Source: a virus. Taken from it: a stretch of DNA of 20,884 bases. Made by a program: the position numbers and the translations under genes. The notes beneath the pieces are model-generated. The model saw only the letters and a list, made by a program, of their open reading frames with translations. It was not told the DNA's origin and searched no databases. The DNA lies in the IMG/VR virus record IMGVR_UViG_3300017923_000013, positions 1-20,884 of that record; one strand, 5' to 3'. Of this stretch, positions 4,496 to 5,991 are shown in pieces; positions within the stretch are counted from its first letter, which is position 1, and each line of letters starts with the position of its first letter.

Positions 4496-4729
4496 ATGAT
4501 CAGTCAGGAAATCAAGTCGTGCTGCGCGGCTCTGGGCGAGCTGACGCACGAACTCACGGACGAGCAGGCGGAGCTGGTGCGCCGGGTGCGGCACAACCTG
4601 AGCGCCGCCGCAGAGGACGCGGAGGTGATGGAGGCGAACCCGATGCTTATGTGCGACAGCGGATTGAAACGGTTCTCGCATGCCCTATCCGCGCTAAACA
4701 AAATCAACCGGGAGGTTTCACATGGATAA
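4496..4729 (+). CDS. Small unknown early protein
   Basis: This 77-residue, mostly helical, acidic protein has heptad-like Leu/Ala spacing (CAALGELTHELTDEQAELV) but no motif I recognise. ATG 4496 follows GGAGG at 4484-4488 with good spacing, and the stop lies 8 bases inside the next gene (gam), so it is translationally coupled to it. It is probably an early accessory protein; I cannot give a function. Confidence 0.75.
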   Translation: MISQEIKSCCAALGELTHELTDEQAELVRRVRHNLSAAAEDAEVMEANPMLMCDSGLKRFSHALSALNKINREVSHG

Positions 4730-5225
4730 GAATCTGAAGAGCTGGGACGACGTGGACGAGGCGGTCCGGCGCATGGGCGAGCTGGACATAGCCCTGGAGC
4801 GCATCCAGGGCGAGGCTACCGTCCGGATAAACGAGATCAAGGACGAGGCCAAGCGCAAGAGCGCCCCGCTCTCCAAGGAGCGCAAGGATCTGGAAAAGCA
4901 GGTGCAGGCGTTTTGCGAGTCCAGCAAAAGCGAATTCGCGAAGAAGCGGTCCAAGGTGCTCAACTTCGGGACCATCGGTTATCGTTTGGTGCGTTCCGTG
5001 CCCGTCCCCAGGGACAAGGACAAGGTCGCCGCTTTGGTCAAGTCCCTGAAAGCGTTCGGCCTGACCGACTGCGTCAAGGTCGAGGAAAAGCCGGACCGGG
5101 ACAAGATCGCGGAGCAGGACGACGCGACCATCGCCAAGCTGGGTCTGAAGCGCACGGTCAAGGACAACTTCCGCGTGCTCCCGGATGTGGAGCGGATTCA
5201 GGACACGGAGCGGGAGGCGGTATGA
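4722..5225 (+). CDS. gam: Gam-like host-nuclease inhibitor (DNA end-binding)
   Basis: The 167-residue protein is near the length of Mu Gam (174). The N-terminal half is a long charged coiled coil (about residues 5-75: DEAVRRMGELDIALERIQGE and onward). It is followed by the Gam-type beta segment (KVLNFGTIGYRLVRSVPVPR), a short helix (DKVAALVKSLKAFGL) and a C-terminal region ending TVKDNFRVLPDVERI. By family, Gam is a Ku-like dimer that binds double-strand DNA ends and blocks host exonucleases. GGGAGG at 4710-4715 precedes ATG 4722. The position, shortly after the transposition genes, matches Mu. Confidence 0.92.
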   Translation: MDKNLKSWDDVDEAVRRMGELDIALERIQGEATVRINEIKDEAKRKSAPLSKERKDLEKQVQAFCESSKSEFAKKRSKVLNFGTIGYRLVRSVPVPRDKDKVAALVKSLKAFGLTDCVKVEEKPDRDKIAEQDDATIAKLGLKRTVKDNFRVLPDVERIQDTEREAV

Positions 5226-5551
5226 GCCTTATGCATCAATACCTGGGCGACATCGGCAGAAGGCTGTTCAAGAAAAAGAACCGGAACGACGTCATCCGCA
5301 CGGAGTGGCTCCCGGCCCATCGTGTACCGGAAGCGATGGAGGCGGCGGATATGATTGATCGCGGACGCGGGAGCATGGGCAGGTATAAGCTGTATTCGCT
5401 TATATATCGGGGGTTCCCCTCACTCAAACCCGACCTGAGGGGCGGGGATGATGTGAGAGTACATGTTTATCCGACGGCGGTGCGCATTGATCTGTGCATG
5501 GGTATGAATTCCGCGGCTATCACCGACGATATCTATCTCGCGGGGGAGTAA
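5222..5551 (+). CDS. Unknown early protein
   Basis: A 109-residue protein starting at ATG 5222, which overlaps the gam stop (ATGA) and is therefore coupled to it. The N-terminal part is basic (GDIGRRLFKKKNRND); the C-terminal half looks like a small beta domain (DDVRVHVYPTAVRIDLCMGM). I do not recognise a family. It is the last gene before the structured gap, and its stop (5549-5551) lies only four bases before the GAA of the hammerhead-like core. Confidence 0.75.
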   Translation: MSLMHQYLGDIGRRLFKKKNRNDVIRTEWLPAHRVPEAMEAADMIDRGRGSMGRYKLYSLIYRGFPSLKPDLRGGDDVRVHVYPTAVRIDLCMGMNSAAITDDIYLAGE

Positions 5552-5552
5552 A

Positions 5553-5660
5553 GCGAATCAGGCACTCAATTCGGTAGCCATGCTTAACGCAACAGTGTGT
5601 GCCCGTTGAGTCCGAATCGAGTGCCTGACGTCCAGGGGTGGCGCCCTGGGCCTGATGAGC
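5553..5660 (+). ncRNA. Hammerhead-like (type II layout) self-cleaving RNA candidate
   Basis: The elements occur in the order and with the exact junction lengths of a type II hammerhead. GC (5553-5554) is one side of helix II and GAA (5555-5557) follows. Helix III is 5558-5574 with 5612-5628, 16 of 17 positions paired. C5629 is the single cleavage-site base. Helix I is 5630-5637 with 5644-5651, 8 bp with one G-U, closed by a 6-base loop. CTGATGA (5652-5658) abuts it directly, and GC (5659-5660) closes helix II. The tip of helix III contains a further 7-bp stem (5583-5589 with 5604-5610). Deviations are a U-A pair at 5558:5628, where known hammerheads almost always have A-U, and a helix II of only two pairs. 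Expected cleavage lies between 5629 and 5630. Activity is inferred, not shown. Confidence 0.55.
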
Positions 5661-5779
5661 AGCCGAACCGCTCCAAGACCCGAGGAGGCCCGGCGAAAAA
5701 TTCCGTGGATCTCTCCTTGTCCGCGGCACTTGGCACCGCCAGACGTAGCCGGGAGAGCGAGCATCGGGCCGGTTACCAC

Positions 5780-5810
5780 GCCCCGCACCATGGACATGGT
5801 GGTGCGGGGC
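5780..5810 (+). promoter_or_regulatory. Strong 11-bp hairpin just upstream of a ribosome binding site
   Basis: GCCCCGCACCA at 5780-5790 pairs perfectly with TGGTGCGGGGC at 5800-5810 around a 9-base loop. It ends six bases before the AGGAGG (5817-5822) that serves ATG 5827. No T-run follows, so a rho-independent terminator is unlikely. Likely roles are mRNA 5'-end protection, translational control or a protein-binding site. It lies in the same 275-base gap as the hammerhead-like element and would be near the 3' end of the leader left after cleavage. The stretch between (5661-5779) has further possible pairings, such as CTCTCC 5711-5716 with GGAGAG 5752-5757. Confidence 0.55.
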
Positions 5811-5826
5811 AATAACAGGAGGCATT

Positions 5827-5991
5827 ATGCTGCAATGCAAGAGAATAAAGGATTGTGACCCGAAGATTTGCGCCAGGGTTTGCACCCTTTGGCACCGGCA
5901 GACCAGATGCTGTTTACTGGTCCGCGACGGTCACGAATATTGCGTGCATGCCGAAGCGCGGAAACAAGAACTCTTGGCCGGGAAGTATTGA
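5827..5991 (+). CDS. Cys-rich mini-protein
   Basis: ATG 5827 has a strong AGGAGG at 5817-5822 and encodes 54 residues ending at TGA 5989-5991. Seven Cys lie at about residues 4, 10, 15, 19, 28, 29 and 39, with a His at 23, 36 and 41, compatible with a small zinc-binding fold. No signal peptide or membrane segment is visible. A longer open frame in another phase overlaps it, but the ribosome binding site and the fit to the next gene (start at 6000) favour this one. The function is unknown; it is the first gene after the structured RNA gap. Confidence 0.6.
   Translation: MLQCKRIKDCDPKICARVCTLWHRQTRCCLLVRDGHEYCVHAEARKQELLAGKY

Follow-up and report, generated by a model that had tools for sequence, protein, structure and literature searches.

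A core-variant type II hammerhead homologue between the gam and gemA/mor blocks of a Mu-like virus

Introduction

Hammerhead ribozymes are frequent in phages, and to our knowledge their role there is unproven. The seven over-threshold type II hammerheads of the Streptomyces phage Diane (NC_054663, L004; stretch 45200-50235), none of which is annotated there, are one example of such an occurrence. In the L079 locus, the hammerhead pattern matches eight times within 7 kb. In prophages, hammerheads flank genes, and the processing of long transcripts has been suggested (PMC3088659); gam goes unmentioned in the main text of this survey. Trimming or mutating the pseudoknot of one type II ribozyme lowers its rate by about 20-fold to more than 100-fold (PMC3088659). 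For mutants of positions 15.1/16.1, a loss of at least 10-fold is cited, while one natural hammerhead with U15.1-A16.1 self-cleaves below typical efficiency, which has been ascribed to the lost contact between A15.1 and G5 (PMC3088659).

Here, we analyse a site in the Mu-like bacterial virus IMGVR_UViG_3300017923_000013. The window is the whole stretch of this record, positions 1 to 20,884, and coordinates are window positions unless another sequence is named. The site closely resembles the type II class of Rfam family RF02276 (Perreault et al. 2011, PMC3088659) in its open helix II of two G-C pairs, its closed stems I and III, its CTGATGA, GAA and C17, its 8-bp stem I with a GUGGCG loop, its pseudoknot between loop I and the 3' tail, and its location in a phage intergenic region. 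It differs in having U15.1-A16.1 in place of A-U, and in a stem III of 16 pairs with a 37-nt apical insert, far longer than that of the model. With Diane it shares the type II class and the occurrence in phage intergenic regions, but the window has one copy as against seven in 5 kb, and the displayed Diane copies carry the canonical A-U pair. The natural U15.1-A16.1 hammerhead has the same core variant and is likened to the site by this pair alone; self-cleavage, with reduced efficiency, has been shown for it (PMC3088659), whereas the site in the window is known from sequence.

Position and Anatomy of the Ribozyme

The sequence-only reading had placed a hammerhead inside the early operon, where it would, if active, separate the transposition and gam genes from gemA and mor. 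Pfam assignments confirm this placement between the Gam and GemA/Mor blocks: a Mu-type transposase, an AAA ATPase and Gam are encoded upstream, and GemA and Mor downstream. The features of the locus are collected in Table 1. A small open reading frame without a Pfam family ends in a TAA stop codon one base 5' of helix II, and this TAA passes directly into AGCGAA.

Table 1. Coordinates of the genes, ribozyme parts and neighbouring element
Feature	Position	Strand	Remarks
gam (PF07352)	4722..5225	+	Pfam, E = 4.9e-38
Small ORF upstream of ribozyme	5222..5551	+	TAA stop 5549-5551
Helix II, 5' side, GC	5553..5554	+	pairs with 5659-5660
Core G12-A13-A14 (GAA)	5555..5557	+	
Stem III, 5' strand	5558..5574	+	variant position 15.1 is U5558
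Apical insert of stem III, 37 nt	5575..5611	+	partly self-paired (fold)
Stem III, 3' strand	5612..5628	+	variant position 16.1 is A5628; includes decoy GAA 5614-5616
C17	5629	+	predicted cleavage 3' of C5629, by homology with the hammerhead core
Stem I and loop GUGGCG (5638-5643)	5630..5651	+	5630-5637 pairs with 5644-5651
Core C3-U4-G5-A6-N7-G8-A9 (CTGATGA)	5652..5658	+	
Helix II, 3' side, GC	5659..5660	+	pairs with 5553-5554
Pseudoknot 3' tail, GCCG	5662..5665	+	pairs with loop I 5639-5642
Rfam match to RF02276 (Hammerhead_II), called span	5610..5668	+	43.8 bits, gathering 37
Conserved structured element, separate from hammerhead	5670..5769	+	directly 3' of hammerhead
Copies of the downstream element	window 5670-5769; L005 5901-6001; L043 2384-2461	+ (window)	

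Every base that had been assigned to the helices, the GAA, the single C and the CTGATGA was found where it had been placed. The CUGANGA and GAA segments sit at exact junctions, position 17, where H is required, is occupied by C5629, and the topology is that of type II, with stems I and III closed and helix II open-ended. Stem III is paired at 16 of 17 positions, with one A.C mismatch, and stem I at all eight, including one U-G; beyond helix II lies an A5552/A5661 mismatch. Loop I can moreover pair with the 3' tail (U5639 G5640 G5641 C5642 with G5662 C5663 C5664 G5665), an addition to the earlier description that corresponds to the pseudoknot of the class. The unconstrained minimum-free-energy fold draws stems I and III (z = -2.8), and helix II is absent from it.

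Judged by sequence, the site is a type II hammerhead homologue, a member of the class, in the + strand transcript. This identity, already proposed from the letters of the DNA, is upheld by the over-threshold Rfam match, by covariation, by the pseudoknot typical of the class and by the canonical hammerhead that a related phage has at the same place. In a search of the whole window against all Rfam, RF02276 was the sole family above threshold (43.8 bits, gathering score 37, E = 3.7e-6), and the same search of 14 control genomes gave no match over the cut-off. The descriptor search gives the site a score of 23.5; on both strands of 60 dinucleotide-shuffled versions of the window, the best score is 11.5. 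A match to Rfam twister-P1 on the minus strand is sub-threshold (22.3 versus 67.2 bits) and was rejected as chance.

Comparison with a Related Phage

A Gam search of IMG/VR returned one close relative, the Mu-like phage L005 (IMGVR_UViG_3300017923_000012), whose Gam is 82% identical. Its type II hammerhead (5805-5881, 49.9 bits) likewise follows gam and one small open reading frame. Both phages have the stop-codon junction TAAAGCGAA in common, the TAA running into AGCGAA in each, and they agree in the length of stem I, the size of its loop and the presence of the downstream element. They differ in that L005 has the canonical A15.1-U16.1 pair and a short stem III loop. The stem III of L005 also lacks the 37-nt apical insert.

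Alignment of the two reveals compensatory changes in both closed stems. Two are found in stem I (A-U/G-C and G-C/A-U) and one in stem III, in addition to a change from G-U to A-U. In the pseudoknot, G5641-C5663 of the window is A-U in L005. Among 116 parsed type II hammerheads, drawn from the loci that had been fetched, the sequence of stem I varies while its pairing is kept; the pseudoknot is kept in nearly all of them, a count that is no independent test, as most come from a viral-contig scan with a pattern that contained GTGG and AGCC. The compensatory changes may be older than the loss of the canonical core pair.

The Core Variant

The sequence-only reading had stated that all required elements are present, and had named two deviations. 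As for the first point, GAA, H17 and CTGATGA are indeed there, but A15.1-U16.1, normally also required, is missing: this pair provides the U of the NUH cleavage triplet, and the triplet here is GAC. The two-pair helix II turned out to be no deviation at all, most parsed type II hammerheads having two or three pairs, in agreement with the common occurrence of two-pair stems II in the literature (PMC3088659). The other deviation, U5558-A5628 at 15.1-16.1, is real and more serious than had been implied, because it removes the core pair with the highest conservation. A-U occupies this position in 132 of 133 distinct type II hammerheads from viral and phage loci, the window alone having U-A, and in all 23 from bacterial genomes. 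The L012 copy is counted in both sets, so that the window is the sole U-A among 155 to 156 hammerheads, parsed with CTGA-GA and GAA as requirements and thus with other core variants outside the sample.

The comparison with L005 indicates, at the level of sequence, how this variant could have arisen. If the first pair of stem III is removed, 8 of 10 pairs are identical, one is compensatory and one is the G-U to A-U change; if it is not removed, only 1 of 10 is identical. The simplest history is a loss of the A15.1-U16.1 pair by deletion on both strands. A swap from A-U to U-A without deletion is disfavoured, since the alignment with L005 points to deletion of the pair.

Hammerheads Downstream of gam

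The phylum to which the Geobacter MAG L012 belongs was surveyed, in 395 genomes, for the association with gam. Gam is present in 25 of these genomes, at 30 loci, and a type II hammerhead (E <= 1e-4) in 16. Ten genomes have both (G022, G316, G340, G373, G415, G443, G461, G587, G606 and G676), a co-occurrence with p = 9e-10 in Fisher's test, uncorrected for relatedness. A hammerhead follows gam on its own strand, at a distance of 8-1,064 nt, at 14 of the 30 loci, and within the ten genomes this holds for 14 of the 15 loci; the copy of G373, 8 nt from gam, is below the Rfam cut-off. At the remaining gam loci, no hammerhead over the Rfam cut-off was found up to about 1.5 kb on either side. Among the more distant Gam relatives that were first fetched, both genomes and viral contigs, most are without a hammerhead near gam. 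The placement 3' of gam is thus recurrent, not obligatory.

Predicted Activity

From sequence, homology, covariation and conserved position, we infer that this core-variant hammerhead probably cleaves and processes the early mRNA between the gam and gemA/mor blocks, but slowly at best. Once RNA polymerase has passed about position 5668, stems III and I would form, GC/GC would close helix II, and the 3' tail would pair with loop I. The core would then cut 3' of C5629. The upstream, gam-side message would end in a 16-bp hairpin, while the downstream, gemA/mor-side message would carry a 5'-OH and start at the stem I hairpin. Cleavage would probably be slow because the deletion of A15.1-U16.1 in an ancestor, on both strands, would have left U-A at that position, and a fraction of the transcripts, not nearly all, would be cut. 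That cutting is nevertheless expected to be detectable follows from the natural U-A hammerhead, which self-cleaves, if less efficiently (PMC3088659).

Several points count against this slow-cutting reading. U15.1-A16.1 occurs in none of the 155 other type II hammerheads, and mutants of the pair show the 10-fold or greater loss mentioned above (PMC3088659). The compensatory changes possibly predate the loss of the pair, and they come from a single close relative. Finally, a ribosome that terminates at the TAA (5549-5551) would sit over the GAA and the base of stem III, and translation could therefore delay folding.

The same observations leave room for a decayed hammerhead, in which the loss of A15.1-U16.1 abolished cleavage and the hairpins are now inert, or stabilise the mRNA, between the gene blocks. 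We consider this unlikely, yet it is the most serious of the alternatives. Besides the disappearance of the most conserved core pair, an insert has grown in stem III, and 16 of the 30 gam loci lack any hammerhead, which makes the ribozyme dispensable. A relic would, however, be expected to drift, whereas all other core bases are intact, as are stem I, helix II and the pseudoknot, and stem III is still paired at 16 of 17 positions; a natural U-A variant, moreover, has been published as active (PMC3088659).

A Conserved Element Downstream

Directly 3' of the hammerhead lies a second structured element. The copies of the window and L005 have in common GCTCCAA..CCCGAGGAGGCCCGGCGAA and GTAGCCGGGAGAG.G.G.ATCGGG; these two conserved blocks flank a variable hairpin. 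The architecture consists of P1, an internal loop GnAGG/AGAGnnnnA, P2, a GAA/GUA module and the variable hairpin. In the longest overlapping frames, the reading frame of the 3' block differs between the window and L005, and its conservation is therefore not at the protein level. With a covariance model built from both copies, L043 yields a third (21.6 bits; E = 0.017 for a search of 179 kb). This copy precedes the same conserved gene and has two compensatory pairs, for which the shuffle control is weak (64 of 500). A hammerhead was looked for in L043 and is absent.

Behind each of the three copies come a strong hairpin and, after it, the start of the next gene. In the window, this is a 12-bp hairpin (5780-5810, + strand) just 5' of a Shine-Dalgarno sequence (5817-5822) and a small Cys-rich open reading frame at 5827; a strong hairpin also precedes the next gene in L005, where there is a T-run, and in L043. 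Some 200 nt of L043 (2316-2518) are strongly structured (fold z = -5.5) and closed by GTCTTCAG/CTGAAGAC; this structure encloses the copy of the element and overlaps the end of an upstream open reading frame.

Rfam 15 has no known family at the element. Two exact DNA patterns and one gapped pattern retrieved, among viral contigs, only unrelated sequence beyond the L005 contig, and covariance model R2 gave nothing convincing in 100 loci fetched by the hammerhead pattern, in 277 genomes (best E 0.08) or in the gam loci. On this sequence evidence, three copies do not suffice to establish a family. It could be imagined that the hammerhead and the element make up a composite leader, with a second RNA domain before the next gene that controls the slowed cutting or its product, but we regard this as improbable.

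The Rfam Alignment and the Choice of GAA

The covariance model of Rfam returned an alignment that does not use the outer GAA. It takes GAA 5614-5616, within the 3' strand of the long hairpin, and a stem III of 3 bp including a G-U. By comparison of sequences, the real core GAA is the one at 5555-5557 and that at 5614-5616 is a decoy, because a stem III of 16 bp goes with the outer GAA and because the L005 ribozyme uses the GAA that comes straight after the stop codon. Rfam probably misplaces the GAA since the real stem III is far longer than in its model; its alignment was rejected on these grounds. That the active fold is nevertheless the one that Rfam draws is very improbable, for a 16-bp helix would have to break to gain three pairs, G-U included, U15.1-A16.1 would result there too, and the GAA of L005 corresponds to window 5555-5557. 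A chance likeness of hairpins to a hammerhead, for which the reliance of Rfam on the decoy and the departure of the core pair from the consensus could be adduced, has a negligible probability and is in practice already refuted by the canonical L005 homologue at the same place, with its compensatory changes, quite apart from the shuffle scores and the Rfam E-value.

Conclusions

Whatever its rate, the hammerhead of the window, deprived of its core pair, forms a matched pair with the canonical hammerhead of L005 at the same site, so that the cost of losing A15.1-U16.1 becomes measurable in a natural setting. The undescribed conserved element beside it is a separate lead. Within one phylum, the recurrence of type II hammerheads just 3' of gam in Mu-like prophages provides a defined operon in which to probe the function of phage hammerheads.
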